Assembly (NCBI GenBank): GCA_034406715.1 | Contig: CP137881.1 | Location: 248,001-312,000 of the forward strand | Source of the DNA: Rhodotorula mucilaginosa | Lineage: Eukaryota > Basidiomycota > Microbotryomycetes > Sporidiobolales > Sporidiobolaceae | Direction of reading: 5' to 3' | Length of the DNA: 64,000 nt | In this document: piece after piece, positions 32,478 to 56,049 of the stretch | Numbering within the stretch: the stretch's first letter is position 1 | How the letters are laid out: every line of letters starts with the position of its first letter | The notes under the pieces: model-generated | What the model saw: only the letters and a program-made list of their open reading frames with translations | The model's database searches: none | What the model was told of the DNA's origin: nothing | Translations under genes and position numbers: made by a program

Positions 32478-32573
32478 GACCATTTGCCCGAGTGGTTAAG
32501 GGGACAGACTAGAATCAAGTTCTTGCCCATCTGTTACGCTATGCGTGCGCAGGTTCAAATCCTGCAGTGGTCG
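32478..32573 (+). tRNA. tRNA-Ser(AGA) with intron, left edge of the island
   Basis: All arms can be folded: acceptor GACCATT with AGTGGTC, D-arm CCC/GGG, anticodon stem ACAGA/TCTGT, a long variable arm (ACGC TAT GCGT) that marks a class II tRNA, and T-arm GCAGG/CCTGC. The anticodon AGA is at 32511-32513, and a 14-nt intron follows position 37 (about 32515-32528). A T8 run just after the gene fits a Pol III terminator. The gene reads towards the transposon island, as does its inverted partner at 55954-56049. Confidence 0.93.
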
Positions 32574-33179
32574 AATTTTTTTTGGTTACACAGCTGCGGT
32601 ACTTTTTTCCCCACTCCTGACACGAACTGGTTTGTATACGCCTACCACTGAGTTGCAACTAGGGAAGTGTGTACAGTTGCGCAGAGGAGGGGAGTTCACC
32701 GAAGCGACATATTTTGACTAGAAAGTTTCAAACAAATTCTTGCATTGGCGCTTTGGGCTGACAGTAGGGCCAGTGCAGCAGACACCTATGTCTACAAAGA
32801 GCAAATGTGGGAACTGGAGGGATCCTGGGATTGAGGATGTCAGTACATCCACCCGCCGCCATCAGGAAAGACTTTTGCTGCGTAGAGGGTATTGCAGATT
32901 GGTACAGGTACAGCTGTACAAGTGCGGGAGATCAAGGAAGTCCTCCAAGTGTCTCTCAGTCCGAATGACTGGATGGTGCTGCGCGGCAGGCACAGAAAGG
33001 GTCAGCGCGCACAGCCTGGCCAAGAAAAGTGTGTTCATGCTCACCAAGTCTCTGACCAGATTGCTGACCTGGGCCCGTGTCAAGAAGTGAGCAATATCAC
33101 TTTTGCAATTGTCACACATTCAGCACTGAGATAGTGTGTAGTTGAACTGTTGTCAGCATCCTTGCTGGCATCCTTGTCA

Positions 33180-33232
33180 GTGTGGTTGTCAGCGTGGTTA
33201 CTGACGTGGTTGTTAGCATGGTCGCTGTGGGG
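33180..33232. repeat. Imperfect 12-bp tandem repeat
   Basis: About four units of the form GTGGTTGTCAGC with changes such as GTGGTTACTGAC and GTGGTTGTTAGC. It lies in relic DNA and encodes nothing convincing. Confidence 0.6.
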
Positions 33233-33986
33233 ATAAACGGTGCATCTCGCCCTGCGCCTTCGACAGGTGGCTGGCCAGGTCATCCCAAGAACAATGTTGG
33301 GCAATCTTGAGGGCAGTTGCAGGTTTTTCCAGCAGCATGTGCAAAGCTAATAGCAACTGCGAGGGCACAATATCAAGTGTCTGGCATCTGCCCATGGCAG
33401 CAGCAAGACAACTGACAAGATGAAGCCAAGGGGTGTGGCGGGATGAGAAAAATTGTGCTGACTTGGCTCGCACACTCATGGGAGGGACTTAGCAAAATGT
33501 TGTTTCTTCTTGCTGCATCGTCTCAAGCTTGTGAGATTGGGACACTATCCACCACACCCGCCTCTTGCTCCATGAAAGTGCTTCTGACCCATCTGCCACT
33601 GGTGACACTTCAAAACAAGTAGGAAAGGCATTCTCAGGATATGCAGCCCAGCTAGGATAATCTAACTGATGAAGGTAGTAGGGCAATCTGAGCGAGTCTA
33701 TTCCTCTCCAGGATGTATCACTCCTGTATAATGTCTACCCAAATCTGCATTGGTGGAAGGGATCTGGATATCTTGTGAGCCTTGTGAGCCAGTGAAGGAA
33801 CCCACATTACAGTATAACATTTTTTGATCAGTGCTGTGTTGCTGCAAATCACCTTGCTTCAGCATGTCTCATGTGTGTAGCAGTAGACACACTTGACTTG
33901 CAGGGTTCAGGAAACGCCCCAAGAATGGGTCTATGCACAGTGTAGTCAATCGCTGCTTATTTGCGCACAGCCAGCCGGATGGAAGT

Positions 33987-34050
33987 GATAGATAGATGAT
34001 AAATCTTGTTTCAAGTCATATTGAGCTATAGCAAGCCCATGTTCAAACTA
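33987..34050 (-). mobile_element. LINE 3' tail relic
   Basis: On the minus strand it reads the conserved LINE end (ACATGGGCT, then GAGCT..AATATGACTTGAAAC) followed by ATCT repeats. It is diverged from the younger copies near 45.8 and 51.1 kb, mainly by C to T and G to A differences. Confidence 0.65.
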
Positions 34051-34905
34051 CCTCAATATGACTTAGATAAAGAACTCACCAAAGAACAAGTAAGTCTACT
34101 CCTCTCCATATCATTGGTGCAGATGCCACTCGTCTCAAGTGCAAGCGAGACCAGGGTACTCTGCAAGGGACGGTAGAGCGAGAGAGACACATGTAACCAA
34201 ACAACCTGAATTAAGCGTTGATCACAAGTAGAGAGAGGTGAGGTGAAGAAGAGAGGAGCTACAACAGGAGGGCTGCGGTTCAAGCCAAGCTCGATCATCC
34301 AACTCGCCTTGACCATCCAAAACCCCGTTGACATCTTGATTTTGAGCACAAGTATATGGTAGTATAATCTGGGAAAAAGGTCAAGTCAGCAAAGGTTCGA
34401 AAAAACAAAAAGCGAGAGGAAAAGGACTTAGAATTTGGAAGAGGACGAAGCGAGCAAGAGTGGACGGATCAAGGAGCAGGCCTTGCAGTTGGCTCTGCTC
34501 CAGCTGTATGCAGAATGTGCAGGGGCAACATCATGACATCAAATGACAGTCCTGACAGCAAGCAGGCTGCAGAGGCCATATAACTGAAAACCTTTGTGAA
34601 CAGCGTAACGAGGATGATATTGATACTGGCAGGCAGCAAGTCACAAAGGACAGCCTCTGGCTCTGGTCAGACTGCTTGTTGCCTATATGCAAGTAGGCCA
34701 CAGCATAGAGGGCAAGCTGAAACCTGCGTTGATGGAGGCTGCTCTGGGCAGATCCTTGCATGATTCGAGGTCCCTCCGTGGCCAGCAACGGGATAGGATA
34801 AGATAAGATACGGGAATCTGCAGACTTCTGTGCGTGCGCGCCAGTTGTGCCACGTCCTCCCATGCGCAGCCCCGCAAGGTGGCTGTCACACCGCCACTGC
34901 CGCTT

Positions 34906-35300
34906 TGCTGGGTCAGGGTCCCAACCTTCGCCTCGCTCGTCATCGTCTTCCCATTCTAAGTCTCTTCCTCTCTCTTTCTTTTCGAACGTCACTAACACTA
35001 CCTCCGATTGCAGATGATATCCTACACCGCGCTGGTCACAAAGTGCTGGCCGCCGCCTCAAGACGCCGTCGCCCGACTTAGGTGGTGTTGGTGGAACTTC
35101 TCGCTCGGACTTGGTCGTAGCTTCCTCTCTCTTTAGCACTCCACCCTCCTCGCTCATATCCCCTCGAAATCTATACTTGAGTCACTGTTTATTGGCTCTG
35201 GCCCGTCTACGACTCGCTACGCACGTCTCCGACTAGCTACGACCCAGAACTGAGCAGGACGCCTTCTCTCGCATTGAGCTCGAGAGCGGTGCGCCCTGCA
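34906..35300 (+). repeat. 5' LTR of the gypsy element
   Basis: 395 bp, starts TGCTGGGTCA and ends GCCCTGCA. It matches 41459-41853 almost exactly and is preceded by target copy CGCTT. Confidence 0.93.
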
Positions 35301-38300
35301 CTTTTTTAACAGTCAAGCACGATATCGATACCGCCACCATTTCCTCTTCCTTATCCTCCGTTACCCCCTCCGACTCTTCGTCGCGTCGCTCGGCCGTCAG
35401 CAGCAGCAGCAGCGACCGACCGACGTCGAGCCGTCACTCAACCTCCACTTCATCGTCGTCCTCGTCTGACGACCCTCCACGCCCGCTCCGACGGTCGAAC
35501 CGGTTCGTGCGAAGCCCCACGTACACCCCTTCAGACCACGACACCTTCCTCACCGCCCAATCGCGCCTCAACCGTTCGGTCCGCTTTAGCAACCTCGTCA
35601 TGGATGCTCGCGACCCGACCACCCTCGACTCGGCCCCGCCCGTACTCAACTCGCCCAAGCCGCCGTCTGTCGAGCCGATGGATGTGTGGCGAAGTGAGCC
35701 CCGCCAAGGTGACGAGACGGTTGGTCCGGCTTTCGTCGCCCCGCCGCGCCTTCCTCCGCCGTCCTCGGTCGCCTCCTCCGCCTCTTCTCTCCGTCGCCAA
35801 CAAGAGTACGCGCGTCGGTTCGAGCAGGAGACAGCCGCCAGACAGGAGCGGTTTGAGCGGGAGCAGGAAGCAGCGCGGGTTAAGATGGAGGAAGAACTTC
35901 GCCTGGCCGACATCGAATCCGATGCGGGATCGGTGAGGCCAATTCCTCGCGGGTCTGCAGCAGAGGAGACGGTCGACGTCGCGCAGCGTCGACTCGCTAC
36001 GGTCGAGCAGGAAGCCGCGTCGCTGCGGCGCGCCATCGCCCTCAAGTTGGCATCGCAGCTCACCCGCGACGCGCCTCCTCGGTCGTCGGTTTCGACTCCG
36101 CCCCCGGCCGCCGTTGACTTGTTCGGTCACGCCAAGCTCAAGGTGGACAAGCCGAAGGCGTGGACGGGGCCGTTTGACCACCTCGCCCGCGAAGGATTCA
36201 TCAAGTCGGTCAAGAACTACTTCATCTCCGTCCGGATCGGGTCCGACACGCCGATCGACGCCACGGTGCTCGGCGTCGTCCGCGCTCTATTCTCTTCCGA
36301 CGCGCCAAAGTCCGGCGGCGTTTCGCCTCAGCGATGGTTCGACTCGCAGATGGATCGGGGCAAGTTCGGTTCGTTGGCGGACGTCTTCACGGCGATGCGC
36401 GCACACTGGGTCGATCGCGACGCCAGCGAACGTGCACGTCGAGCGCTTCGCACCGCCGAGCAGGGCTCCATGAAGGCGCAAGAGTTCGGTGCGGTCATTG
36501 ACTCGCTCGCCGACGAATGCTTCGACCGCGTCTACGATGACGACTCGCGCCGCGATTTTTTCGTCGACGGGTTGCGCCGGGACGTCCGCGAGTTCTACCG
36601 CGTCCAGTTGGCGACGTGGAAGGACGTGCACGGCGACCGGGAACCGCCTTTCGCGAAGGCGGTCGAGATCGCCGCCCGGTCGGACTTGCTTTCCGGCCGA
36701 GCGGCGGAACCTTACGCTGCTAAGTCACTTCCCTCTCACTCTACAAAGCCCTCGAGTGGTACTAAGAGTTTGTCGTTGCAGAAGCCCCTCGCTCCCGCCT
36801 CGACTTCGGCCCCGGCAGCCACCGGTACGTCGACGTCGGCACCCGCGCACTGGTACGACGCCGCCGTCAAGTGGCAGGCTGCCCATCCTATGCCGCAGAA
36901 AGCCGAGTGGCACCGCAAGGATGCTCCGGAGCTTGCGAAGGACGTCCGTTGCTGGAACTGCGGCAAGGTGGCGCGGCACTACTCGACGGCGTGTCCGAAC
37001 GCGCGCGTGGACCTCCGACGGGTGATCGTCGCCGCGCTCACGTCGCTTGGCAGCGACACCACTCTCGCCGGCATGGACCGCTATGACTCTGGGACGACCG
37101 ACCGCGAGGTCTGGTCTGAGAGCACTTCCTCCGAGAACGAGGTGCCGGGAAAAGAGTAAGGCGTGCGAGGCACAGTCCACCCCGCACGCCGAAACACTCG
37201 ACTCCCGCACCTCTCACCGCCTCCAGTGATGAAGCGACGGTCTCGCAACCAGAGGCTCCGTGCCAAAGACGGTCGGACCCCGACACTGAGGAGGTTGGCG
37301 ATCCGGAGACTGACTTGAACTCGTCAGCTTCGGCGACGAAGTCGAGTCTTTCTTCAAGTTCTCTTTCTTTCTCTACCGATTCGGATGGTCTACTACTTAT
37401 GCAGGCAGCAGTGACGAATGTAGGGACGGATTTGTTGCAACACAGCACTTCTCCGCCCCCGAACGCTCCAGACTCCGATTCGAGTGACCCATCGTCCGGA
37501 CCGCGTAAAAGGAAGAAACCGAATCGTCGCCCTCCGTCCCGTGCTCCTCCAGCACCGCCCACAGTCGCGGCTTCGCCGTTGACTCTACCTGTCCGCTTCG
37601 GCGACGGGTCTTCCGAATCTTCCGCTCTGGTGGATTCCGGTGCGCAAGCCGACGTCGTCTCGCCGGATCTTGTGCACCGCCTGCAGATGCAGGTACGCCG
37701 GCTTGATGCACCGGTGCATGCCTCGCTTGCCTCGGGCAGCGACGGCGTGCGGCTCGCCCTCTTTGCCGTGACGGATCTTCGCGTCGGCGACAAGTTGCTT
37801 TCGCAGCGGTCGTTCTTCGTGAGTCCTCTCCCCGACAGAATTGACGCCATTCTTGGCACGCCCTTCATGAAGGATACCGGTCGGTCCGTCGTCAGAGGTG
37901 TACGACTTCGAATCGCGCTCGTTCTGCTCGCAACCCGAGGAAAACTTGCGAGACCTCGGCTTCACGGATCGCCGGATGGACGCTAGTGAGTTGGAAGATT
38001 TCATGATCTGTTCCATGGCCGCCGGTGTCGCGCCCTCCGAATTCGACGACTTGTACGAGCGGGTCGGCTTCGAGCCGAAGAACCCGCTGTTGGACATCGA
38101 CGATGATGACCCGTCGTCGGTTGATCTTGACTCGGGCGAGGCACAGACGTTGCTCGACCAGCTCCTGACCGAGTACGCAGACGTTTTCGTCGACGAGCTT
38201 CCGAGTTTGCCGCCATTCCGCCCAATCAACCACGAGATCCAACTCTCCGACAAGCTCAAGCGCATCAAGCCTTACGCGATTCGGATTCCCGATCGCTACG

Positions 38301-41067
38301 CCGCACAGTGGACCGCCCACGTCCGCAAGTTCCTCGAGAAGGGTTTTTGGTCGCCAGCGGCGCTCGACTCGGCTTGCGCCATGTTCGCCGTGCCGAAACA
38401 CGACCGAACGCAGGCGCGATTCGTCATCAACCTCAAGCCCCGCAATGAAAACACCGTTCCGCTCGGTTCGCCTATACCCGATATGGTCCAGGTCCGGCAT
38501 CGACTTGCTCGTGCGCCATATCGGTCGAAGCTCGACTTCAAAAACGCCTACGAGCAAGTGCGTCTTGAACCCGATTCCGTTCCCCTTTCCGGCTTCATTA
38601 CCCCGAGCGGCACTTTCGTCTCGCGGGTAATGCAGCAGGGCGACCGGAATGCGCCAGAGACGATGCACCGGGTGTGCTACATGATGTTTCAGCGCAGTCA
38701 GCCGATTCTTGGACGTCTTTTACGACGACGTCTTTGTCTACTCGGCGACTCGGCGCGCGCACCTCCGGTACCTCGAAATCATCTTTACGACTTTGCGACA
38801 CTTCAAGTTCTATCTGTCGCGGTCTAAAGTTGAGTTCCTCTCGGCGAAACTCAAGGTTCTCGGTGTTGTGGTCTCGGATGCCGGGTTGGACGTCATGCCC
38901 GACAAGTGGGAATCGGTCCAGCGGTGGCCCACACCGAAGAATCCAAAGGATATTCTTCGGTTCTTGGGAACTGTGCGGTGGATGGCGGATCACCTCCCTC
39001 GAGTGAGCGAGATCGCCGCGCCGCTCTCCGCGCTGACGGGCAAGGTGGATTGGAATTGGACGCCCGCTTGCGATCTAGCGTTCACGATGCTCAAAGAGCT
39101 CGTGCCGCAGACGCTTCGACCTCTCGACCTCTCTAAGGTGGACTCGGGGAAGGAACGTATTTTCTTGGTCACGGACGCGTCGCAGTTTGGTTGCGGCGGC
39201 TGGCTCGGTCAGGGCGCCTCGCTTGAGGACGCGGTCCCGGCGCGATTCTTTTCTACTAAGTTCAATCGCGCGCAGCACAACTACGACACGACAAACCAGG
39301 AGCTGCTTGGCGTCCTGAACGGCTGCCGGAAGATGCACGAGCATCTCATTGGCTCACACTTCACGGTTGTATGCGACCACGAACCGCTCAAAACATACTG
39401 GTCGCAACCGCCAAAGCAGACTCGACGGCTCAACAGGCTATGGGAGACGCTTGCGGAGTACGACTTTGACTGGCTTTTCACCCCCGGCAAGACGAACCAG
39501 CTCGCCGACTCGCTTTCGCGTCTCGCCGAGCTCGTCGAGTCGGAACGGATCGACTTGCCGGTCGCTCTCGAACCGCCCCCGCATCCTGACGACCCCGAGG
39601 CATTCCCGAGCGAGCTGTCTCCGGCTCGCATGGTCCTGGCCTCGTTGACGGCGGCGCTCGTGCCGCCCAAAGCTAAGTCGTTCCATCTTCTCTCTCTCTC
39701 TCTCTTCCGCTTCCTTCTCGCACTTCGCTGACATCTTTCCCATCTGAGTTCACAGATTCTCTCGCTCTCGCCTCCGCCTCCAACTCGCTCTGCAAGACTG
39801 TCTCGGACGACCCGACGCACTGCCCCGACTTCGCCGTCGTCGAAGGTCTTGTTTTCCTTCGCGCCGACGAGACGGACTCGTGGCGTCTTGTCGTACCGAC
39901 TGGTTCTGTGCCGACAGAGGCCATGGTGGACCCCGGAGCCACATGCCCGACGTTCCGTGAGTTCATCATCGCGCACGTTCACGAGTCTGTTGGCCACCTG
40001 GGACACAAGAAGACCGCAACTGCGGTCCGCAAGAACTTCTTCTGGCCGACGCTCTCGCGAGATGTCAACGAGTACACTCGCGCGTGCGAGCCTTGCGCAC
40101 GGAACAAAGCGTCAACGCAGAAGCCTTACGGGCTGACGCACGCGCTCGGCGTACCGGGGGAACCTTGGAAGCAAGTGGGGATGGACTTCATGGTCGGATT
40201 GCCGCCGGTCGAACACGCTGGCGTGACAGTCGACGCGATCTTGACCGTGACGGACTATCTGTCCAAGATGGTCATCTTGATCCCGCTCCCGTCGACGGCT
40301 AACGTGCAGGAAGTGGCGACGTTGTTCTTCCGCCGCGTCGTCGCCCGCTTCGGCATGCCCACCTCCATCGTTTCGGACCGCGACCCCAAGTTTACGTCGT
40401 CGTTCTGGGCGTCGTTGTACGCCTTAGCCGGCGTCAAGCTCAAGATGTCGAAGTCGGCTCACCCGCAAACGGATGGTCGCGCCGAGGTCACCAACAAAAC
40501 GGTCGGTCAGATCCTCCGCACGGTTTGCGAAGATGATCCGTCCGGCTGGGCGGACGCACTTGCAACAACGGAGATGGCAATCAACATTGCCGAGCCCGCA
40601 TCCACGGGTGTTTCGCCTTTCGAAGTTGTCCACGGTTTCGTCCCCTCTCTCCTGCCCCTTCCTTTGGGCAACGCCTCGCTCGACTCTCCCGCCACAAACA
40701 ACGACCCCGACTTGGCCGCCGTCGAGTTCGCCGATCGCGCACAGGAATGCGCGGCCCACGCGTTCGATGCGATCGTTGGCGCGCGAGTTGCCATGGTTCG
40801 GTACGAGAATCGCCACCGACGGATGGAACCGGCGACCTTTGCAGTCGGTTCAAAGGCCTACATCTCAACTTCATCCCTTCGCTTCCCTCCCGGCCTCTCC
40901 GCCAAATTCCTGCCCCGGTTCGTCGGTCTGTTCGAGATCGTTGCCGCCGACCCGTCGACTTCCACTTTCACCTTCAACCTTCCGCCTCACCTCACCCTTC
41001 ACCCTCGCATCCACGCGTCAAAGCTCCGACCTCATCTTGCCACCGACGCCACCCGTTTCCCGGCTCT

Positions 41068-41126
41068 GGATAGGATAGGATAGGATAAATTCCAAGTTTA
41101 AAGTCGTTCAAGCCTAGAAGAGACTC
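41068..41126 (-). repeat. TATCC-tailed short unit inside the gypsy element
   Basis: On the minus strand it reads CGACATGAGTCT ... CTTGGAATTTATCC followed by repeated TATCC. It is nearly identical to the units at 42196, 43236 and 43605 and lies between the integrase and chromodomain parts, so it probably inserted after the gypsy element. No clear target duplication is seen. Confidence 0.7.
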
Positions 41127-41458
41127 ATGTCGAAGGCGTTTTCCAACCCGCCGCCTGTCGTCGGCCCGACGGACTCGCCGGAGGCGCAGTGGGAAGTCGA
41201 GAAGATCGTCGCCGATAAGATGCTCCGTGGACGCGTCAAGTACAAGGTGCGGTGGTTGGGTTACTCAGCCGCTTCCGACGAGTGGATCGATGCGGAAGAA
41301 CTCCGGCAGGACGCGCCGGACGTGGTCGCCGATTACGAAAAGGCCAAGTCGGCACGTCGGCGCGACCGGCCGGTCGGACAACAGGTGCGCAAGGCGCGCG
41401 CCCGCGTGGCAGCTGTCCTTGCATCTCTCTCCCTACGTTCCGTTCTAGGTGGGGTGGG

Positions 41459-41853
41459 TGCTGGGTCAGGGTCCCAACCTTCGCCTCGCTCGTCATCGTC
41501 TTCCCATTCTAAGTCTCTTCCTCTCTCTTTCTTTTCGAACGTCACTAACACTACCTCCGATTGCAGATGATATCCTACACCGCGCTGGTCACAAAGTGCT
41601 GGCCGCCGCCTCAAGACGCCGTCGCCCGACTTAGGTGGTGTTGGTGGAACTTCTCGCTCGGACTTGGTCGTAGCTTCCTTCCTCTTTAGCACTCCACCCT
41701 CCTCGCTCATATCCCCTCGAAATCTATACTTGAGTCACTGTTTATTGGCTCTGGCCCGTCTACGACTCGCTACGCACATCTCCGACTAGCTACGACCCAG
41801 AACTGAGCAGGACGCCTTCTCTCGCATTGAGCTCGAGAGCGGTGCGCCCTGCA
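41459..41853 (+). repeat. 3' LTR of the gypsy element
   Basis: 395-bp partner of the LTR at 34906-35300, about three differences. It is followed by the second CGCTT target copy. Confidence 0.93.
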
Positions 41854-41858: not shown

Positions 41859-41987
41859 AGCAGGTCTGTCTAGATTCACCAGATCCACACAACCCTGGAA
41901 GGACTCAGCTACCAGCGCACCAAATTGGATGCCTGCCTTTAGGTCCGCAAGGGCATACACACTACATTGCCCTCTGCTTGACAACTC
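41859..41987 (+). mobile_element. copia reverse transcriptase fragment
   Basis: It matches the RT region of the minus-strand copia element near 48830-48930 (the stretch coding for TLEGLGYQRTK). It begins directly behind the gypsy target duplication, and a matching upstream piece seems to lie at 34870-34905. Thus the gypsy element split an older copia fragment. Confidence 0.65.
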
Positions 41988-42038
41988 CGGGAAACAGCCC
42001 GTATCCTCAAGTTTGTCCAGGATACGGGTCGTTTCCCG
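41988..42038. repeat. 20-bp stem with 11-nt loop
   Basis: Arms 41988-42007 and 42019-42038 pair at 18 of 20 positions; the two mismatches are adjacent. The stem includes CCCGTATCCT/AGGATACGGG. It is not seen in the other LINE or copia copies of this window. Confidence 0.75.
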
Positions 42039-42195
42039 CATCTGTTTTATGTTCTGTGATCCCTTACTCTCGTTTCTGGCGGGTGTTCCCTACGGGGCTT
42101 TTCCTCCCGCGTGTATACTCCCCTTCCCTCGCTTCTGTTACCCCCTTCCCCAGGTAGCTGGTTTGGTGGCTCACTCTATTTGGTGGCCCCAGTCA

Positions 42196-42263
42196 ACATG
42201 AGTCTTGTCTAGGCTTGAACGACTTTAAACTTGGAATTTATCCTGACCTATCCTATCCTATCC
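42196..42263 (+). repeat. TATCC-tailed short unit
   Basis: Begins CAACATGAGTCTTG, contains TTTAAACTTGGAATTTATCC and ends in repeated TATCC. It is the same unit as at 43236 and 43605. Upstream 42040-42195 holds pyrimidine-rich sequence without a recognisable gene. A target duplication is not clear here. Confidence 0.7.
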
Positions 42264-42965
42264 AGGGTTAGGAGGAAGGAGTAAGTGGTCCCGCAACTTG
42301 ACTTTGCCGCACTCGCACAGCTCCTTGTTGGAATTGAAGTGGGCGTGGTCGGCTCCTCAGTCACATACACCGGTGCGTAGTTGGGAGAGCAGGGTTGACT
42401 GACCACGAGTAAGCTAAACATGGGAACAGGAAAAAAAGGAAGGACCAGGAGGTGATCTGGCAATGACGCGGATGCTGGCAGCCAAGGTCGCTGCAGACCA
42501 GCTCTGGCCCCCTGCTGGAGAAGAGCGGCTTTGTAGCTAGCCCGTATATCCAAGACATTTCTGGGGAGCTCTCAGCCGCCGAGGAGTCGTCCGTCCCGAG
42601 TTCCCAGTCTTACGTTGGAGGCGCGCCCGGGCGGCGATCTGACAAATTGTCATTGCAAAGTCGCCTCTCCTGACTCCTCCTTCGTACTCGCTGTCGCCAT
42701 CGCTGAACGGTAATTTGGTGGCAGCGTTAGGGCCAAAGGCCATGGCCCTGAGACCTCGCTTTGCCCTCGTGCGCTTCTCGCGAGCGGCTGTCGACTTTGC
42801 AAGCGCAAGGCTCGCCTCCTCGACCGCCGTTTTCGCCAACTCGTTGGCTTCCTCATCGCTGTGGATGCCGACGTGACCGGGGAACTCAGTGTACGACCAG
42901 TGGGTGAGTTTCCTCCATTGAAAGGAGCGAGTTGCGGATGGCCAGGCAGATCTTTCGGTTGGGCA
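42264..42965 (-). mobile_element. 5'- and 3'-truncated LINE copy (RNase H part)
   Basis: Minus-strand copy of the LINE seen best at 44518-45843. It codes pieces of the RNase H motif FPGHVGIHSDEEANELAKTA, the linker EKRTRAKRGLRAMAFGPNA and the Cys motif near the C-terminus. It lacks the 3' tail and lies head to head with the plus copy that starts near 42966. Frame changes are visible, so it is inactive. Confidence 0.75.
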
Positions 42966-43235
42966 GGAATCGAGGTTCCTGGTCGACTTCTCCCACGGGC
43001 GCCCAACTTCGCGCCATCGCCTCCTCTCCACCCGGTCCCACCTTCACCCGCTATCACTCTTGGCTCTCTCGCCGCCAGTCAACGCTTCTCACACGACTAC
43101 GGACCGGCGCTTGCAACCTCGGCGCATATAAGGCGCCGATCGACTCATGGGCGCCTGCGGCGGCGAACCCGAAATTTGGCAACACTTCTTCCTGCACTGC
43201 CCGCTCTACGCCACCTCTTGTGCAACCCTCCTTGC

Positions 43236-43285
43236 GACATGAGTCTCTTCTAGGCTCGAATGACTTTAAACTTGGAATTTATCCT
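43236..43285 (+). repeat. 50-bp TATCC-type unit with 12-bp target duplication
   Basis: The 50-bp insert GACATGAGTCTC...AATTTATCCT is flanked by AACCCTCCTTGC at 43224-43235 and again at 43286-43297. Without it, the host LINE reads continuously across the target. This shows that the short unit moved as a discrete insertion with the long target duplication expected of target-primed reverse transcription. Confidence 0.85.
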
Positions 43286-43604
43286 AACCCTCCTTGCCTC
43301 CCTCCGACTTAAATTACCTTCCCTCGCCTGCCTTCTGAGCGACTCTCGCGCGACGAAGGCGACGGACGCTCCGGCTCCTTGCCGACTCGGCCCGCTTCAA
43401 CTCGCTTTATTGCCCGCCCTCGGAGGACCCGTTGCCTTGAGTTCTGTTTGATCTGATTTGAGTTTATCCCTTCCCCTCTTCTACCCTTTCACTAGACCCA
43501 TTCTCCTTCTCCTGTCTGCTTTCTCCGCCCCCTCCATCCTTCTCTCCTTCTGTTTCCACCCATCTTTACCTGTAGCATCCTCGGTCTACATGGGCTTCCT
43601 ATAG

Positions 43605-43670: not shown

Positions 43671-43750
43671 TTCCTATAGCTCGATATGACTTGAAACAAG
43701 ATTGATCTATCTATCTACCTGAGTTTACCATCTATCTATCTACCTGAGTT

Positions 43751-45843: not shown

Positions 45844-46185
45844 CCCTTCGACTCAAATCACCCTTCCTCGCCTACCTTCTCAGCGACCCGCGCGCGACAG
45901 AGGCGACACTTCCGTACCTCGCCGACACGGGCCGTTTCGACTCGCTTTATTGCCCCTCGGAGGACCCATCTGTTTAGTTTCTGAATTCTTTTCTGCCCCT
46001 CCCCTTTCCTGTCTCACTCCCTATCCACTATACCCCTTCACCCTTTTCCAACCTGAATTCCCCGACTCAAACGAGCGGATTTTTTCTTCGGGCCTTTCCT
46101 CGCTTCCTCCCTTTGTGCAGTATCCTCGGTCTACATGGGCTTAATGACTCAATATGACTTAAAACAAGAAACATCTATCAGGTAG
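45844..46185 (+). mobile_element. 5'-truncated LINE copy
   Basis: Begins directly after the TATC tail of the previous copy, with C-terminal sequence (SDPRATEATLPYLADTGRFD-like), then 3' UTR and the tail GTCTACATGGGCTT ... TATGACTTAAAACAAG. Confidence 0.7.
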
Positions 46186-46194
46186 GCTAGGGTG

Positions 46195-46535
46195 GGTGAT
46201 TTCAGTCAGAGGGAGGCAAGGAGGGTCGCGCGTGGGATGGCATAGAGAGGGCAGTGAAGGAACAAGTGTTCTCGGGTTTCTGGCTCACCGCCGCATCGAA
46301 CTGTGCCTTGTAGGTGCCGAGGTCGCAAGCGCCAGTCCGAAGCCATGTGAGGAGAGTTGACTGGCGGTGTGAGAGCGGCGAATGATAGCGGGTGAAAGCA
46401 AGACCGGGAGGGGAAGTGGTGACGGCGCAAAGATGGGTGCCAGTGGGTGAGGTCAACCAGGAGCGCGCCCAGGTCGCCTTTTGCGCTGCTTTAAAGGCTG
46501 ACCAGCCTGCTAAAAGGCTCCTAGGCAGCATACGC
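46195..46535 (-). mobile_element. LINE fragment, minus strand
   Basis: Minus-strand C-terminal LINE coding sequence with RRQSTLLTWLRTGACDLGTY-like and REHLFLHCPLYA motifs. No tail is attached. Confidence 0.7.
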
Positions 46536-47026
46536 CCGTGTCAGACCGAGCCTGAGCTGTTGTGAGAGGCGGAGCACATGGTAGCAGTTCCTAAACAGCT
46601 AGTATAGCCTGTAGACATCTCTAAGAGCCCATAGAGCCTGCTGGAAATGCTAAACACATGATATTTCAGGCTTGAAAAGCTTCTTACAGGGTCCCGGAGT
46701 CATTTTGACTCTGGGAGTTTTCAGCTTGCTGGACGGGAAAATCTCTGGGTCTGGGCTCTCGGGACCCGGGCAGGCAGCCCCGGATCTCCAGGCTGACATC
46801 CTCTAGCACAAGCTCAAGAACTGCGTAGTTGTATCACAGTTAAATTGCGGAGATTGCAACTGGGGAGTGTGCAAGAGATCATATGTATTGCATGAACACC
46901 CCCTTTCCTTGAGCTAGTAACAAATCCTTGACATGTTTCGACCTGACAAAGCAACTTCTCATGACAAATGGTTTAAGCAGATGGAGTGCAGAGTGACGGT
47001 GCTAGGTAGTCAATTTGATAGATAGA
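46536..47026. other. Relic DNA with a decayed copia piece
   Basis: No gene. The stretch at about 46850-47010 aligns by eye with the copia element at about 50535-50680 and differs mainly by loss of CG dinucleotides (C to T and G to A). The rest is unassigned and CpG-poor. Confidence 0.55.
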
Positions 47027-47206
47027 TCAGTCTTGTTTCAAGACCAGAGACAACACGAGAGCAAGGGGAGAGAGGAAAGGAGATAGATAGATAATTCTTG
47101 TTTCGAGTCCTGTCGAGCTAACAAGCCCATGTAGACCGCGGATACTACACAAAGTGGGGGAAGCGAGGAGAGGCCCAAAGAAAAGGCCTACTCTTTGAGT
47201 CAGGAA
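47027..47206 (-). mobile_element. LINE 3' tails, minus strand
   Basis: Two successive minus-strand tails with GATA repeats (about 47019-47040 and 47083-47130); the second continues into LINE 3' UTR sequence and meets a plus copy at 47207. Confidence 0.65.
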
Positions 47207-47589
47207 AAAACTGCGATCTCGGCGCCTACAAAGCACACTTTGACCCGGATCGACTCCTCTGCGCGTGCAGCGGCGAACCGGAGACCCGCGAACACTTCTT
47301 TCTCCACTGCCCGCTCTACGCCATTCCGCGCGCTACACTTCTCTCCTCCCTCCAACTCATCTCTCCTCCCTCCAACTCAAATCTCCCTCCCTCGCCTACC
47401 TGCTCGGCGACCCGCGCGCAACAAAGCCAACACTCCGCTTCCTCGCCGACTTGGGCCGTTTCGACTCGCTCTACTCCCCGCCCCCTGATGACCCGTCTAG
47501 TTGAGTTTGCCCTCCATCATACCTCTCCCTACATCCCCTCTCCTTCTCCCTCTCACCTATACCCCTCATTCTTTCCAACCTGATTTTCC
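47207..47589 (+). mobile_element. LINE copy, left half, split by the copia element
   Basis: C-terminal LINE coding part (CDLGAYKAHFDPDRLLCACS-like region, YLLGDPRATKPTLRFLADLG) and 3' UTR up to GATTTTCC. The copia element follows, and the LINE continues at 53287 with its 3' UTR and tail. The duplicated target is TTTCC. Confidence 0.85.
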
Positions 47590-47829
47590 TGTTCAAGGCT
47601 GCTCTCCAGGCAGTGAGAGTGAACTGCTAGTGAGTATGACAGTATAGAGAGAAAAGTGTATGAGGGAGGCTACACACCTGCTCTCCAGGCAGTGAGAGTG
47701 AACTGCTGGAGAGCAAGAGAGGGAGAGGAGCGAGTGCGCGTCTCATGACGAGTGACTCAGGGGCGGTTTCAGAGGCGCTCAAGGACTTGAGAGGATTCTC
47801 ATCCGGGGGGGAGAGCGTCTGCAGCAACA
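47590..47829 (-). repeat. copia 3' LTR
   Basis: 240 bp, TGTTCAAGG...GCAACA. It contains a 28-bp direct repeat (CTGCTCTCCAGGCAGTGAG... twice) about 60 bp apart, and the second copy runs into an inverted match CTGGAGAGC. Confidence 0.9.
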
Positions 47830-50800
47830 CCCCCCCTCGCTCGAAACGGTTGGATGCCCAAGGCAACGCGGTGCTGGATGAAGCCCGGGAGCGGGAGAGA
47901 CTTGGTCATGACGTCGGCAACCATACGCGCAGTCGGGATGTACGTGACCGTGATGTCGCCCTGCTGCACCTGCTCGCGGACGAAGTGCTCCGTCAGGCGA
48001 AGGTGGCGAGTGCGGTTGTGAAACTGCGGGTCGCGCGAGAGAGCGTTGGCGCCTTGGTTGTCACCGAAGAGCTCGATCGGTCTGCCGGATCCTTGCGCAA
48101 GCTCGGACAAGAGCTGCGACAGGTGGATCGCCTCCTTCGAGGCGTGCGAGAGACCGAGGTACTCTGCCTCCGTCGAAGAGGCGGTAACGCGCGGCTGAAG
48201 CTTGGACGACCAGGAAACGGCGCCCGATGCAAGGACGAAGGTGTACCCCATGGTCGAGCGCGAGGTCGAGGGGCACGCACCCCAGTCCGAGTCCGAGTAC
48301 GCCTCGAAACCGGCAAGTGGCGAGTCGTCAGGCTGGAACTCGAGCCCAAAGTCGAGCGTTCCCTTGATGTACGCCAGGACGCGGATGACGGCAGCCCAGT
48401 GCGAGTTGTCTGGCCGCGCGGCGTGGCTAGCCCAGAACGCCCACGGCGTAGCAAAGGTCGGGGCGAGTCCCAAGCACGGCGTACATGAGGGAACCGACGG
48501 CTTGAAGGTAGCGGGAGCGGAAGGCAGGGGTGGGCTGGTGGTCCTCCGGAGCGACGGCAAGCTGCAAGTTCGGCTGCATTGGTGTCGGGGCGGTTCGACC
48601 GTCGGCGTAGCCAAGGCGGAGTAGGACGTCCTCGAGGTACGCACGCTGGGAGAGGAAGATTCCGCCATTCGACCGGCGATGTACCTGGATGCCCAAGATG
48701 AACTTGGCTTCGCCGAGATCCTTGATGCCGTACTGCCGTTTGAGGCCGTCCTTGATCCGTTGGATCTCGTCGAGGTCAGGCGAGACGAAGAGGAGGTCGT
48801 CAACGTAGAGGGCAATGTAGTGCGTGTGCCCCCCCTCGCTGCGGACGTAGATGCAGGCGTCTGACTTGGTGCGCTGGTAGCCGAGTCCTTCCAGGGTCGC
48901 GTGAATCCGGTGATTCCAGACGCGGCCGGCCTGCTTGAGGCCGTACAGCGCGCGATCGAGTTTGAGGACCTTGCCGGCGTACTCGCTGTCGTCGATGCCT
49001 TCCGGTACGCGCATGTACAGTTCCTCCTCGAGTGCGCCGTGGAGGTACGCCATGTCGATGTCAGCCTGATGGACATGAAGGCGGTGGCGGGCGGCAAGAG
49101 CGAGCAGGACGCGGATCGAGGTGAACTTGACCACGGGCGCGAACGTCTCGCGGAAGTCGACGTACGGCCGCTGGGTGAACCCTTGTGCGACGAGGCGGAC
49201 TTTGTGGCCGGTGACTTGGCCGTTCTGGTCCTTTTTGCGTCGGTAGACGAAGCGTGCCCCGAGGATCTTTGCATCAGGCGGCACCTCGCTGCGGTCGACG
49301 GGGTGGAAGACGTTGTACTCGTTTTGGAGGGACGTGAACTCGTCGTGCTCGCCGAGGCGCCAGCGCTCGGAGTCTGTGTCGCGCATCGCTTCGCGGTGGT
49401 TGCGAGGGTCGGACGTCGGAAGCGAAAATTGCTCGTCCGAGGCAGAGAGGTCTTCACCGGCGGCCGAGTAGAGAGCCTCGACTTCGGCAAGTGTGGCCCC
49501 GAAGGGGTCGTTACCGAGGAAGTCGAGCTCGTCACGGGACTCCTCGTCAGGGAGAACAGGCTCGGGCGAAGGCGGCGAAGGGGCGCTGGCGCGGTGGAAG
49601 ACGGCGGTGTCACGACAACCTCGCGGGCTTGAGCAGCTCGTACGGGAGGACGTGGCACGACCGGCGGTGCACGCGCGGGAGTCTGCGGCGTCGCATCGTT
49701 GGCAGCGGAGGGAGCTTGACTCGAGGCAAGGATGATCAAGTCGTCTGGAGCAGGCATAGGCTGCGGCAAACTTTGCGCAGTACTCGGAGTGGCGGCGGCA
49801 AACGGGAATTCGTCCTCTACGAAACGGGCATCGCGAGATCGCACAGTCTTGCGTGTCGCCGGGTCGAAGAGGCGGTAGGCGGCCATGTCGCCATCGTAGC
49901 CGATAAAGACGAGAGGCACGGCCTTGTCATTGAGCTTTGCACGACCGTTGGTGACGGTGTGGTAAGCACGACAACCCCAGACCCGCAGCATGTCGACCCG
50001 TACAGGTTTGCCACGCCAGACGGCGAGCGGGACGCCTCCCGCAAGTGCAGCATGCGGCGACCGGTTCTTGACAAAGACGAAGGCGAGAAGCGCCTCTGCC
50101 CAGAGGGCTTTGGGTGCTTGGGCCTGATTGAGCAGTGAAATCAGGCCCTCGACGATGGTCCGGTTGATCCGCTCCGCGACGCCGTTGGCCTGCGGAGAGT
50201 ACGGCGGTGGCATCTCGTGATGGATCCCGTGTTCGGCCAGGAAGTCGCGGAATTCGTGGGACGTGTACTCGCCGCCGTTGTCGGAACGCAGGCGCTGGAT
50301 GTGCTTGCCCGACTCGTTCTCGGCAGCCGCCTTGAAGCGCTGGAAGGCTCCAAAGACGTCACTCTTGCGGGCGAGCGCCTCGACCCAGAGCATGCGAGAG
50401 TGGTCGTCGACAAACGTGACGACGTAGCGGCGACCACCATACGACGGTACGTTGATCGAGAGCACGTCCGTGTGCACGAGCTCGAGAAGCTCTGTCGTCT
50501 GACGACCCGACCGCGGAAACGGCAACCGGGAACCGTGCGAGAGATGACATGTATTGCACGGGCGAGGCTCCACACTTCCTTGAGTAGCTACTTCCAAACC
50601 CTTGACATGTTCCGACCTGGCAAGCGACTTCAGCGACCTAAGGGAAAGGTGCGCAAAGCGACAGTGCCAGGTGGTCAGTTCAGGTTTAGAAGCAGTACCT
50701 GTGGCAAGGAGAGCGGTCGCACCTTTGGCCGTGCTCGGAGCAATCAGCTCGCCGTCGAGTTGGTAGAGGTGCTTCCGGAGGCGAGTGCCGGTGGCAATCA

Positions 50801-51069
50801 CGACGCCGTTGCGCGAGAGGGTGGCTCCCTGTCCGAAGGTTGTCGTGACGCCGTGGTTGTCGTAGAGTTGCGACGACGAGATGAGGTTTGCTGCGATCCC
50901 GGGCACGAGAAGCGCCTGATGGATGACCACGATCCTGCCGCTGACGAGCTTGACAAGGAGCGAGCCTACGCCGGTGACCACGAGCCCGTTCTTGGCACCG
51001 GAGACGCCACCGACGGGTGACGGACGGCATCGGCGAAAGTTGAAGAAGAGCGAGATCTCGCCGCACATG

Positions 51070-51919
51070 ATAGATAGATAGATCAATCAAGTTTCAAGTC
51101 ATGTCGAGCTAGAGAGCCCATGTAGACCGAGGGTACTACTCGAAGTGGGAGAGGAAAGGAGAGGCCCGAAGAAAAAACCTGCTCGTCTGAGTCAGAAAAA
51201 TCGAGTTGGAGTAAAGGGACAAGGGTATATGGTGGAGGCAGAGTGATGGGCTATGGTGGAGAGTCAAGCAAAACGAGGGGGGGGGGGGCTATCCAGAAAG
51301 AGGGGGGTCTGCTAGCGGCGAGTAGAGCGAGTCGAATCGCCCCGAGTTGGCAAGGAAGCGGAGAGTCGCCTTGGTGGCGGAGGGGTCGCTGAGCAGGAAG
51401 GAGATGGGAGGGAGGGTGGGCTTGCGGTGTCAGAGAGGAGGGCGGCGCGAGGAGCGGCGTAGCGAGGGCAGAGGAGGAGGAAGTGTTCCCGCGACTCAAC
51501 TTCTCCGCACTCGCACAGCTCCTTGTCCGGGTCGAAGTGTGCGCGGTAGGCGCCAAGGTCGCATACGCCGGTGCGTAATCGGGAAAGCATGGTCGACTGT
51601 CGGCGAGTGAGCTGAGCGTGGTATCGAGAGAAGGAAGGGCCGGGAGGGGATCTGGCGATCGCGCGAAGGCCGGCGCCGGTCGTTGCAGCAGACCATTCCT
51701 TGGCCCATTGCTGGTGGAGAGCGGCTCGGTAGCTAGCCCATATCGCCGAGACGCTTCTGGGGAGCTCCCAGCCGCCACCGAGACGTCCGTCGCCGAGGTC
51801 GCGGTCTTGCGTTGAAGGCGCTCGGGCGGCGATCCGACGAGTCGTCATTGCCAAGTTGCCTCTCCTGCCTCCTTCCTCACACTCGAGGACGACTCGCTGA
51901 CGGCTTTAGGGTCGAACGC
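51070..51919 (-). mobile_element. 5'-truncated LINE inserted in the copia element
   Basis: An 850-bp minus-strand copy with the C-terminal LINE region (LTRRQSTMLSRLRTGVCDLG, CECGEVESREHFLLLC), 3' UTR, conserved tail and GATA repeats at its left end. CATG flanks it at 51066-51069 and 51920-51923. It is almost identical to 44968-45843, but inverted, and must be younger than the copia element that it interrupts. Confidence 0.88.
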
Positions 51920-53046
51920 CATGGGAGTGAGTGGCGCCGCTGTCGATCGTAGGCTTGAGGCTGCGCGGAGTCGCGCTGAAACTCATGGTGAGCCAGACTT
52001 CGACGCCCGTGTCCTCGTCGAGAAGGGACGCAAGTTGCGCGTTGGCCTCGCCGGCTTGTGCGAGTCGAGCCTTGGCCTTGAGACGGTTCTTAAAGTTGCG
52101 CTCCTTGTGTTGAGCGCGGAACTTGTTGCCCTCCGGACTGGTGCAGTCACGGAGCCAGTGCGCGCCCTTGCAGGCGGGGCACGGCGAAGGCGGCGGCATC
52201 TCTGAGCTTGCGGTGAGCGCGACAGAGGTGGACGACGACGACGACGAGAGGCGGAGGACCTCGTTCCGGACGAGATCGAGTATGCGATCCGTGCTGGGCA
52301 GTTCCGACGAGTTGGTGATGGCGAGGCTAGTCTGGAACGCGCTGAGAGCGGGCGGAAGGGCGTTGAGGAGGTGCGACAAGTATACTGTCTCGAGCTTGAC
52401 GTCGGCGGCCTTGATGGCGGCGAGGGCGGCTCGGTACTCTTTCGAGAATGTCTCGAACGCCTCCGGTGTGGCAGCCGGGAGCGTGAGTCCCCAAAAACGA
52501 GTGAGCAGTCGTTGGGCGCCTTGCGCGTCCGACGGACGGTAGACATCGCGTAGGGCGGCCCAGTATGCCGTGGCCGTGCGCTTGCAGCCGGCAACGTGGT
52601 GGATCACGCTCTGGTCGGCCAAGATGACGATCGTCGAGATGACAAATTCGTTTAGCCGGTCCCAGAGTGTAGGGTCGAACGATCCTCCCTCGCACGGTTC
52701 ACCGTCGATGACCTTGCAAGCGTCGACGCCTACGAGAGCTCGGAGCTGTATGGTCCAAACGTTGTAGTGGTCCAAGCCGCGGAGGTGCGAGGCGACGGGG
52801 AGAGGAGTCGGTTTGTTGGGCACATGTAGAGCAAATGCCGCGAGCGCGCTGGAGGCGTCGGGCTTCTTGTCGTCTTTGCTGGCCATGACGAGTTCGATCG
52901 GTCTCGATTTTGATCTCGACTGATGATGTGGCACTCTCCTGGAGCGTTTTACGCCGCGGGACCGGTCGGGCGGCGTAAAATCTCAGACTGCCAGTGACCG
53001 GGTTGAGCTTGGACCGTGGAGAGAGCGCTAGTTGGGGCTCATAACC

Positions 53047-53286
53047 TGTTCAAGGCTGCTCTCCAGGCAGTGAGAGTGAACTGCTAGTGAGTATGACAGT
53101 ATAGAGAGAAGAGTGTATGAGGGAGGCTACACACCTGCTCTCCAGGCAGTGAGAGTGAACTGCTGGAGAGCGAGAGAGGGAGAGGAGCAAGTGCGCGTCT
53201 CATGACAACTGACTCAGGGGAGGTTTCAGAGGCGCCCAAGGACTTGAGAGGATTCTCATCCGGGGGAGAGAGCGTCTGCAGCAACA
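53047..53286 (-). repeat. copia 5' LTR
   Basis: 240-bp partner of 47590-47829, about eight differences, with the same internal direct repeat. The primer-binding region and Gag follow on its left. Confidence 0.9.
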
Positions 53287-53420
53287 TTTCCTGCCTCAGC
53301 GAGGAGGTTTTTTATTTGGGCCTTCCCTCGCTTCCCTCACTCTGAGTAGTATCCACGGTCTACATGGGCTTCTATAGCTCGATATGACTTGAAACGCGAC
53401 TTGTCTATCTATCTATCAGG
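53287..53420 (+). mobile_element. LINE copy, right half, 3' UTR and tail
   Basis: Continuation of the copy at 47207-47589: TTTCCTG..CAGCGAGGAGG, T-rich UTR, GTCTACATGGGCTTCTATAG, CTCGATATGACTTGAAAC and TATC repeats. Confidence 0.82.
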
Positions 53421-53635
53421 AAAAGGTTGGAAGAGGATGACGGGTATAGTGTGGTGTGGGTCAGGAGTGAACCAGGGAAAGGGGGAGGGCAGAGCAGAAA
53501 AGAGAAACTAAACAGGTGGGTTCTCTGAGGGCGGGCAATAAAGCGAGTCAAAGCGGCCCGAGTCGGCGAGGAACCGGAGCGTCGCCCTTGTCGCGCGCGG
53601 GTCGCTGAGCAAGGAGAGGAAAGGCCAGAAGAACA
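53421..53635 (-). mobile_element. LINE fragment, minus strand
   Basis: Minus-strand 3' UTR and C-terminal end (SDPRATRATLRFLADSGRFD-like, then LYCPPSENP-like). It abuts the TATC tail of the plus copy. Confidence 0.65.
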
Positions 53636-53880
53636 CCGTGCTCATTTGGTCACTTCAGGCTTGGAGGTAGTACCTGTAGCAAGGAAGGTGCTTGCACATT
53701 TAGCCGTGCTCAAAGCCACCAGTTTGCTGTCTAGTAAGATAAAGATGCTTCCAAATGCAAGTACTGGTGGCAAGTACCACACAATGCCCAGGGGGTTTCT
53801 GCACATTGTTGTGAAGCTGTGATTGTTGTAGAGGTGCAACAACAAAGTGAAATTTGCCTCAATGCCTGGAGGAGGTCTCT
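53636..53880 (-). mobile_element. Decayed copia relic
   Basis: It aligns by eye with the intact copia region at about 50675-50880. Nearly every CG of the younger copy is TG or CA here; I count about one CG left in 240 bp. This points to methylation-driven or RIP-like decay. Confidence 0.7.
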
Positions 53881-55953
53881 AATTTGCCAGACACTTTTGC
53901 AACTCAACCCTCAAATGAGGTGAATGAGAACGCGAGCTGTGTTGCTTCCATGCCCTGAATGAGAAGATAGATTCCAGGTCTGGCACACATCTGTCTCTTT
54001 TCTCTATCGACCTTTCTATCTATCTATCTCTCCATCCTCGAATTACCTTTCCACTGATAAACTCCAGACATGCTATGGCCTGCCACCTGTTTCAGAATGG
54101 CGAGGCACACGCACATGGGGGCTCTGTGATAAACTAGTTTGACTGATGTGTGCCATCTTCTTGCAGTACCTGATCAATCAACCCCCATTGCATCAAGCAG
54201 GCAGCAGGTTTACATGGGCATTCTAGCTCACAATGACGTGAAAAGATTCTCTGTCTATCTAACAAGAAGAAGGTGTGCTGCTATCTCAATTCTCTGTGTG
54301 TGAGCTGGTTTCCACAACTCTGTGCTTTCTGCCCAGCTTGGTCAACTTCATTCACGGGTGCCCGACTTTGCACTTTCACCACTACTCCTCCCGGTCTCGC
54401 TTTCAACCACTTCCACTTATTGCTCTTGCACTGCCAGTCAACTCACCTCACACAGCTATGGACTGTTGCATGCAACCTCAGTGCCTACAAGGCGCTTTGC
54501 AAACCCAAGCGACTCATCTAACACAGTGACTGCCGGCTACCCTGAGCTGGCCACAACATTAGTTCCCCTTCCAACCTTCTTCAGCTTTGGGCTCACCCCA
54601 TCCCTACTTTGCAAGCCTTGGCAGTTCAAGTCTCAAGATCCTTGGTGCCTGGTTTAGCATTAGCTTCCACCTGCATGACACACGTGCCCAGTGTTATTGA
54701 TGATGAAGTGACAGCTCTTACAGCAATGTACATTTCTTCCTTTGTAGACAGGCCTGTTGCCCGAGCTTGCTCTTGCGATTGAGTCAAGTTTTCAAGTCAC
54801 CGTCGAGCCTTACAACGCTACGTGCAGTGAGGTGCGTGATGCAAGGCAATACATCTTGTTTCAAGTTCTTTCACCTCCCCTCCTCTCGCAAGCCCTTTCA
54901 GGGCTAAGCTCTCTGCCACCTCCCCTACTGCAGAAGCTAGAGTGGCCAGGAGTTAACTGCCTCCTTCAATCCTGTAGCACGAAGTCGGCTGCTCCTCCTT
55001 CCAACTTGCCGGTGTCTTCTTCAACTCACAATGCCCTCTCTTGCTGCACCATGCGAGTTGCCCTGTCATTGCCATGATGCCCTCTTCCTTCCCCCGAATG
55101 CACGCCCCAGGGCTCACAATGACGGGACAGTGGCAGTTACGTGGAAGGACACCGCTTGAAGCTCGCTTCCGATGCGTGACCTGATTGCTCTCCTCATCGT
55201 ATCTGACGGAGAACAACCAGGTGAGTCTTCCAGTTCTGCAGCATAGCTATCATTGTATCTAACAGAGAACAGCCAGGCAATATACTGCATTGCTATTCAG
55301 TTCAGCTATGGTCTCAGTGTCGATCAAATGACAAAATGTCCGTCCGTCATTGACCTTCCACTTGCTGCCGGAGGAAAGCAAATCATACCTCACTTCTGTC
55401 TGCATGGAGTATTTCTGTTGTCAAATAGTTCAATATGATTGCACTCAGCCAGAACTGACACCAGTTGACTGGTCGGTCATGACTCATGCTGCAACTTGGG
55501 AAACCAACAAGTCACTGTCACAAGCGGAGGGACAGACTTGCCGCAGGGAAACGAGGTGGTGCACTTCCTCTAGTCTGACCCACAGGCGGAGCTAGACAGG
55601 GTACACCAGCAGAAGAGAAGAGATGGAATGCTCATTGCACATCAACAGGTTGGCAGAGCCACGGAAAGCGAGCAGAGATATTGGATTTGAAAGCAGACCA
55701 GTCTGATCTGTACATCCCGTGACACGGTGACGGGTTGTATGTCAGTACAGTACAGGGTACAGGAGCCTGTGCCCCGCGCACTCCCCTGTCGAGCAAAAGT
55801 CAAGATCATCACGCCCGTGCGGGAGGTCACGGGCCCGGGAACATTCCCTGCTTGAGGACTTCGAAACAAGGGCAGCCACAGCGCAGCTTGCACAATGCAA
55901 AAGTATCACAAAGAGCCACAATGAGCGAAAGAAAAAAGGTGAAAAAGCTATGC
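53881..55953. other. Gene-free, CpG-poor relic DNA
   Basis: No host gene is supported. A decayed plus-strand LINE piece is recognisable at about 54340-54520 (equivalent to 42975-43170, CG dinucleotides lost). Two related 23-bp pieces (TATCT.AC.GAGAACA.CCAGG) lie at 55199-55221 and 55254-55276. Short TCTA runs and LINE-tail-like words occur near 54005-54020 and 54230-54260. Confidence 0.55.
54340..54520 (+). mobile_element. Decayed LINE relic
   Basis: It matches the LINE coding stretch GGTCGACTTCTCCC...GGCGCTTGCAACCTC at 42975-43170 by eye, with CG changed to TG or CA at most sites. Confidence 0.65.
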
Positions 55954-56049
55954 CGACCACTGCAGGATTTGAACCTGCGCACGCATAGCGTAACAGATGG
56001 TCAAGAAGTCAATTCTAGTCTGTCCCCTTAACCGCTCGGGCAAATGGTC
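55954..56049 (-). tRNA. tRNA-Ser(AGA) with intron, right edge of the island
   Basis: Same arms as the gene at 32478-32573: acceptor GACCATT/AGTGGTC, anticodon AGA, long variable arm ACGC/GCGT and T-arm GCAGG/CCTGC. The mature part differs at one D-loop base (GAGCGG against GAGTGG), while the 14-nt intron differs at several positions. A T5 run lies just downstream. It reads leftwards, into the island, mirroring the left copy. Confidence 0.93.

Follow-up and report, generated by a model that had tools for sequence, protein, structure and literature searches.

A retroelement island bordered by inward-facing tRNA-Ser(AGA) genes in Rhodotorula mucilaginosa is a predicted regional centromere

The window analyzed here, that is, the whole stretch of 64,000 nucleotides of Rhodotorula mucilaginosa DNA (bases 248001-312000 of the 504,216-bp contig CP137881.1, hereafter C18), holds an island of retroelements enclosed by two tRNA-Ser(AGA) genes that point inward around 23.4 kb. 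Based on the sequence, this island is predicted, with a probability of roughly 0.87, to be a regional centromere (core plus pericentromere) and one of a matching set found on 17 of the 18 nuclear contigs. The initial annotation of this DNA had put forward a candidate centromere or pericentromere, a proposal supported by the genome-wide set of islands, often tRNA-bordered, that carry the same long interspersed nuclear element (LINE).

One island per contig

The prediction is carried by the distribution of the LINE. All 43 listed matches to its 242-bp 3' end fall into a single cluster per contig, each at most 18 kb wide, on 17 of the 18 nuclear contigs; the expectation of one such region per chromosome was thus borne out on these contigs among the matches listed. 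The clusters lie (in kb) at C1 361-373, C2 121.6, C3 1548-1556, C4 174-178, C5 407-414, C6 1151, C7 229.5, C8 158-161, C9 1116, C10 38-56, C11 151-158, C12 177, C13 714-719, C14 237-251, C15 197-213, C16 547 and C18 294-301. The 5.4-kb LINE field of the C18 island gave 363 matches, and those listed fall on 15 contigs, in every case at a single place on the contig; the C6 island (C6:1151087) was found only with the LINE 3' end as query. The best 40 of 119 candidates were scored for the 3' end and the best 40 of 81 for the field, so that the counts are lower bounds. The probability that 17 random places would all land on different contigs is ~8e-7, with the lengths of C6, C9, C12 and C13 set by the final telomere match on each contig and estimates used for C5, C15 and C17. 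The islands vary in position, from ~30 kb from the contig end (C10) to mid-contig (C18).

The genome comprises 20.35 Mb in 19 contigs, of which C19 is taken as mitochondrial because 14 of the 62 tRNA matches obtained in a search blind to the islands lie on it within ~40 kb, leaving 18 nuclear contigs. TTAGGG arrays occur at both ends of seven contigs (C2, C3, C6, C9, C11, C12, C14), so that at least these seven look like whole chromosomes, and at one end of another seven (C1, C5, C8, C10, C13, C16, C18); none were seen on C4, C7, C15 and C17 in the genome search. A pyridoxal-kinase exon in the window is 94% identical to that of Rhodotorula pacifica, the closest named species, and 86% identical to that of R. 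sphaerocarpa.

The islands are repeat-rich and free of host genes both in the window and in the frames chosen in the other islands. Among 22 such frames, 16 encode transposon domains, six gave no match and none belongs to a host family; eight frames chosen outside the islands comprised three host families (SAP18, AAA, Dopey) and five without match. The copia family places 44 of its 50 matches in islands, and the six outside are at most 40% identical. RVT_1 domains are found in islands in 21 of 26 cases, the other five being at outside gypsy copies. The gypsy query produced 25 matches, with 15 in islands, two on C17 and eight elsewhere; apart from those on C18 and C16, the island matches are 35-47% identical, no closer than the outside matches (25-52%).

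Some islands display features of their own. Those on C3 (1541.5-1558 kb) and C10 (30-61 kb) are situated ~22 and ~30 kb from telomere-bearing ends, a distance at which these chromosomes would be nearly telocentric. On C15, a unit of 3,326 bp is repeated in tandem ~8 times over ~170.6-197 kb; every copy includes LINE and gypsy-like pieces, and the array may represent a satellite built from transposons. Beside the C5 island, eight evenly spaced hits to a B-box plus T-run pattern (386.4-404.5 kb; period 2575-2589 bp) suggest another tandem array, possibly of tRNA-like units; the first 100 hits of this pattern, reaching C9, were considered. At the CpG-poor border of the C2 island (C2:110153-111037, minus strand, locus L016), a Tc5-type transposase DNA-binding domain (PF03221) is probably the relic of a DNA transposon amid the retroelements.

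tRNA genes at the island borders

The island-blind search, in which the best 63 of 396 candidates were scored, left 48 nuclear tRNA genes after removal of the 14 matches on C19. Of these, 23 are located no farther than 20 kb from one of 15 LINE islands. This area makes up 3.7% of the genome and would be expected to hold 1.9, and a count of 23 did not arise in any of 20,000 random placements (the lengths of C5, C6, C9, C12, C13, C15 and C17 were estimated for this test, and the islands of C6, C12 and C17 lay outside the set). None of the 48 is inside a LINE span. When the tRNA genes of a second search (best 40 of 62 candidates) are added, 46 of 81 are near islands, a figure biased by a query chosen at islands.

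The initial annotation had raised the possibility that tRNA genes flank such a region on each chromosome, which holds in part: tRNA genes at a distance of up to 20 kb flank nine of the 17 LINE islands on both sides (C2, C3, C4, C7, C8, C10, C14, C16, C18) and another three on a single side (C1, C6, C11), while in five none was identified among the matches listed. On C6 the tRNA signals are at 1154217 and 1155909, near the LINE match, and on C1, which was read on both sides, the tRNA is on the right only. In seven of the nine two-sided islands the two sides carry a like tRNA gene in opposite orientations: Ser on C18; Gln, Ile and Asp on C16; Gly on C7; Glu on C4; Arg on C2; Thr on C14; and, on C10, Ser together with an 84-nt gene for which the ARAGORN label Ser(TGA) is doubtful and which presumably is an initiator Met gene, given its resemblance. 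The two others are not mirrored, with Leu genes on the same strand on C3, where a 92-nt gene labelled SeC by ARAGORN is likewise doubtful (96% match to a Leu gene), and different tRNA genes on C8. Over 135 kb of islands and flanks, Rfam recognized tRNAs only and no 5S rRNA gene.

Structure of the C18 island

Positions without a contig name are those of the window. The left border tRNA-Ser(AGA) gene (32478-32573, plus strand; Rfam RF00005, 47.5 bits) and the right one (55954-56049, minus strand; 45.9 bits) each contain a 14-nt intron and were detected by ARAGORN with introns allowed, since the default run with introns off reports no tRNA. Allowing introns up to 1000 nt also yields a tRNA-Asn at 40810-41640 with a 743-nt intron, which was rejected as spurious. 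The two copies differ at five positions, one in the mature part and four in the intron, which suggests two old copies maintained by selection. A third tRNA-Ser(AGA) gene was not found genome-wide (7/7 candidates scored, the other five being 79-82% alike), and the second tRNA search agrees.

Host genes resume at a short distance on either side. A WD40-repeat protein gene (29547..32160, plus strand, start approximate; Pfam WD40, THOC3-type propeller) ends with a stop codon at 32160, which leaves 317 bp to the left tRNA gene, and a gene for a prenyltransferase alpha-alpha toroid protein (56403..57596, plus strand, end approximate; PF00432 in two frames) has its first ATG at 56403, 353 bp beyond the right one.

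The content is arranged as follows. CpG-poor relic DNA with a GC content of ~0.50 occupies the left edge (32574..34900; low-CpG windows from C18:280751, window 32751). It is followed by a gypsy long terminal repeat (LTR) retrotransposon on the plus strand (34906..41853), with LTRs of 395 bp (34906-35300 and 41459-41853; 3 differences), a 5-bp target-site duplication (CGCTT) flanking both ends, the Pfam domains RVT_1, RT_RNaseH and Integrase_H2C2, and a chromodomain (Chromo PF00385, E 2.7e-11) at 41118-41567. Next comes a field in which LINE fragments lie in either orientation (41859..47584); recognized from repeat comparison, RNase_H and genome matches, it includes an RNase H frame (44423-45616) and the LINE 3' end (45600-45841). 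The copia LTR retrotransposon on the minus strand (47590..53286) has LTRs of 240 bp (47590-47829 and 53047-53286; 8 differences), the target-site duplication TTTCC and the domains RVT_2 and rve, among others; it contains a LINE fragment at ~51069-51885, a copy present in the inverted repeats I1-I3. At the right edge, CpG-poor relic DNA with LINE remnants (53292..55953) shows low-CpG windows to C18:303651 (window 55651). The distance to the nearest border tRNA gene is 2.3 kb for the gypsy and 2.7 kb for the copia element, and GC content falls from ~0.60 to ~0.50 at both island edges. In the subset of island frames that was compared with Pfam, all matches are retroelement domains. The initial description of this locus, which comprised an inward tRNA-Ser(AGA) pair one mature base apart, host genes resuming within 0.4 kb, no host gene in about 23 kb, and gypsy, copia and LINE insertions with CpG-poor relics, was accurate on each of these counts.

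CpG depletion and small-RNA components

Depletion of CpG is largely restricted to the interior of the islands. Between the outermost tRNA genes, 65 of 264 windows have an observed/expected (o/e) ratio below 0.6, compared with two of 253 outside (Fisher p 1e-18). This comparison used non-overlapping 500-bp windows in six regions with two-sided tRNA genes (C2, C3, C7, C10, C16, C18), the border tRNA genes having been picked after the islands were seen, and C7, C10 and C16 give little outside DNA. At the C18 and C3 islands, the last low-CpG window on either side is within ~0.6 kb of a tRNA gene. The initial annotation had invoked methylated centromeres; this part of the proposal is not supported, as CpG depletion was all that was seen and, in spite of it, no match to the DNA cytosine methylase family PF00145 was obtained genome-wide (introns could hide one).

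Piwi domains are encoded on C9 (894 kb), on C7 (912 kb) and in the window at 1330-2134 on the minus strand (C18:249330-250134), and on this basis RNA interference is likely present. The Argonaute-type gene of the window is located ~30 kb from the island; its matched part contains a TGA, perhaps within an intron.

Inverted arms

Of the seven islands read together with their two flanks (C1, C2, C3, C7, C10, C16, C18), three (C7, C10, C16) possess inverted arms longer than 400 bp that carry tRNA genes and are 99.4-99.9% alike. The arms measure 2,391 bp with 12 differences on C16, ~2,712 bp with 3 differences and one gap column on C7, and 494 bp with 3 differences on C10. Despite their CpG depletion (o/e 0.53-0.69), the two copies of each long arm are near-identical. 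Decayed DNA that has stayed the same on the two sides has probably been copied from one to the other in recent time; gene conversion would account for this, recent duplication being the alternative. On C2 the sides share only the tRNA gene and a few bases (136 bp, 88%). C1 has no inverted arms apart from element copies inside the island, and the 853-bp inverted pair (99.4%) of C3 is likewise internal, matches element DNA of other islands and bears no tRNA gene. The idea of arms common to several chromosomes was rejected, given that matches between contigs, in eight regions, extend over only 0.1-0.4 kb at 68-80%.

A model of the islands and its alternatives

Elements with a chromodomain are known to prefer silent chromatin. 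Based on the available evidence, CENP-A chromatin would most likely form on the retroelement core and silent chromatin over the CpG-poor edges, perhaps aided by RNA interference; CpG depletion is an indirect sign of such chromatin. LINE and chromodomain elements would gather there because they are attracted to silent chromatin or tolerated in it. The border tRNA genes, via TFIIIC and RNA polymerase III (Pol III), would halt silent chromatin a few hundred bases before the host genes, and gene conversion would keep the inverted arms alike. On balance, we lean toward the tRNA genes acting as barriers of this kind.

Several observations weigh against the centromere set or against the part given to its borders. 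C17 is without a LINE match among the matches listed and has only a weak gypsy relic (267.6-268.3 kb, 28-34% identity), the C6 island is marked by a single 163-bp LINE match at 80%, and eight of the 25 gypsy matches are located outside islands. No tRNA gene was identified, among the matches listed, at the islands of C5, C9, C12, C13 and C15, and three islands have tRNA genes on one side only. CpG-poor DNA overshoots the border tRNA gene by ~1.9 kb on the left of C10 and ~1.5 kb on the right of C16, and on the left of C2 it begins several kb inside the border. The two sides of C18 share only 103 bp at 93%, that is, the tRNA gene and a few bases. Finally, mirrored tRNA pairs are also present on chromosome arms lacking a listed LINE match: C4 1268277 (-)/1279505 (+), C9 198229 (+)/214959 (-), C1 1591717 (+)/1595006 (-), C5 661/663 kb, and further pairs on C8. 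Around the C4 arm pair (loci L006/L007, ~3 kb per side), CpG o/e is 0.82-1.34, the sides share 119 bp, and no match to the island elements of the window was found. Mirroring alone is therefore not diagnostic of a centromere, and a mirrored pair by itself was dropped as a sign of one; the C18 pair resembles a plain arm-type pair, and those of C7 and C16 do not.

These arm pairs, the five islands with no identified tRNA gene, the right-sided C1 and the overshoot on C10 and C16 are what would be expected if the islands are centromeres and the tRNA genes bystanders, for example survivors at decaying edges, exerting no barrier function. This explanation deserves serious attention, although we hold it to be somewhat doubtful: 23 of 48 tRNA genes in 3.7% of the genome are more than bystanders easily give, and the edge of CpG depletion coincides to ~0.6 kb with the tRNA gene on both sides of C18 and C3.

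That the islands are ordinary silent repeat clusters, such as graveyards in regions of low recombination, and not centromeres, is considered improbable. Their content of retroelements and decayed repeats fits such clusters, other gypsy and copia families exist elsewhere in the genome, and the centromere reading is itself derived from sequence. Nevertheless, a single LINE-bearing place per contig with tRNA genes on its flanks is what a set of centromeres predicts and ordinary clusters do not, and the recurrence of such a place at varied positions on 17 of 18 contigs, with tRNA borders and inverted arms, argues against them. Least probable is that the islands are insertion sites, unrelated to centromeres, of retrotransposons that seek Pol III genes: such targeting is known in yeast (reviewed in PMC5911963) and would fit the tRNA enrichment, but insertions do not accompany tRNA genes in general, none of the 43 listed LINE-end matches being outside islands although 25 of the 48 tRNA genes are, the LTR elements of the window keep a distance of 2.3 and 2.7 kb, and targeting would not yield one place per contig.

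Comparison with known centromeres

The regional centromeres predicted here would provide 17 positions in Rhodotorula, a genus that serves as a source of oils and carotenoids, and mapped centromeres would aid the construction of stable vectors for these yeasts. A search of the openly available literature on Rhodotorula and Rhodosporidium centromeres, Pucciniomycotina CENP-A and Microbotryum, judged by title and opening lines of the abstract and with subscription papers outside its scope, gave no description of such centromeres.

LTR-rich centromeres are found in Cryptococcus. The predicted centromeres of Salmacisia buchloeana are, like the islands, gene-poor, rich in copia and gypsy elements, low in GC and one per chromosome (PMC10849329), and those predicted in Ganoderma leucocontextum are LTR-rich, with copia (PMC10817607). 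In contrast to these basidiomycete centromeres, for which the accessible text does not mention them, tRNA borders and tRNA-bearing inverted repeats are frequent here. In the R. babjevae paper, the word centromere occurs once (PMC9027234). Retroelements near tRNA genes are shared with the retrotransposon clusters at Pol III genes (PMC5911963), but in Rhodotorula the LINE is absent from arm tRNA genes, among the matches listed, and the LTR elements are more than 2 kb off.

The closest likeness is with fission yeasts, as far as the accessible portions of the sources describe them. In Schizosaccharomyces octosporus and S. cryophilus, tRNA clusters occur at transitions of this kind between chromatin domains, and ~32% of the tRNA genes of three fission yeasts are at centromeres (PMC6538654), compared to 23 of the 48 found here near the islands. 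The inverted repeats at S. pombe centromeres undergo recombination, from which isochromosomes can result (PMC10813616). With these three species the islands have in common tRNA genes at the borders (both sides in nine of 17, one side in three) and intact tRNA genes; inverted repeats around the centre, a further trait of those species, were seen as arms over 400 bp on three of the seven islands read with flanks. They differ in that retroelements fill the core, which in fission yeasts is mostly non-transposon DNA between heterochromatic outer repeats, and in that, unlike in S. octosporus and S. cryophilus, no 5S rRNA gene was found in the 135 kb searched. CENP-A and H3K9me2 have been shown in fission yeasts, which belong to a different phylum, while the Rhodotorula islands are known from sequence. 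Retrotransposons serve as centromere DNA in Schizosaccharomyces japonicus too, where CENP-A is on two retrotransposon classes and the accessible text mentions no mirrored tRNA borders (PMC6538654); in Rhodotorula the LINE is the common mark.

Whether a basidiomycete reached the fission-yeast plan independently, with a repetitive core fenced by tRNA genes, in some cases within inverted repeats kept alike by recombination, with a centromere-confined LINE as the mark of nearly every chromosome, and with a fence on C18 made of the sole pair of tRNA-Ser(AGA) genes identified genome-wide, is in our judgment evenly balanced. On C18, such a fence would tie an essential gene to the border of a centromere. 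Taken together, the comparison suggests that tRNA fences and homogenized centromeric inverted repeats arose more than once, which would make the boundary idea testable outside fission yeast.

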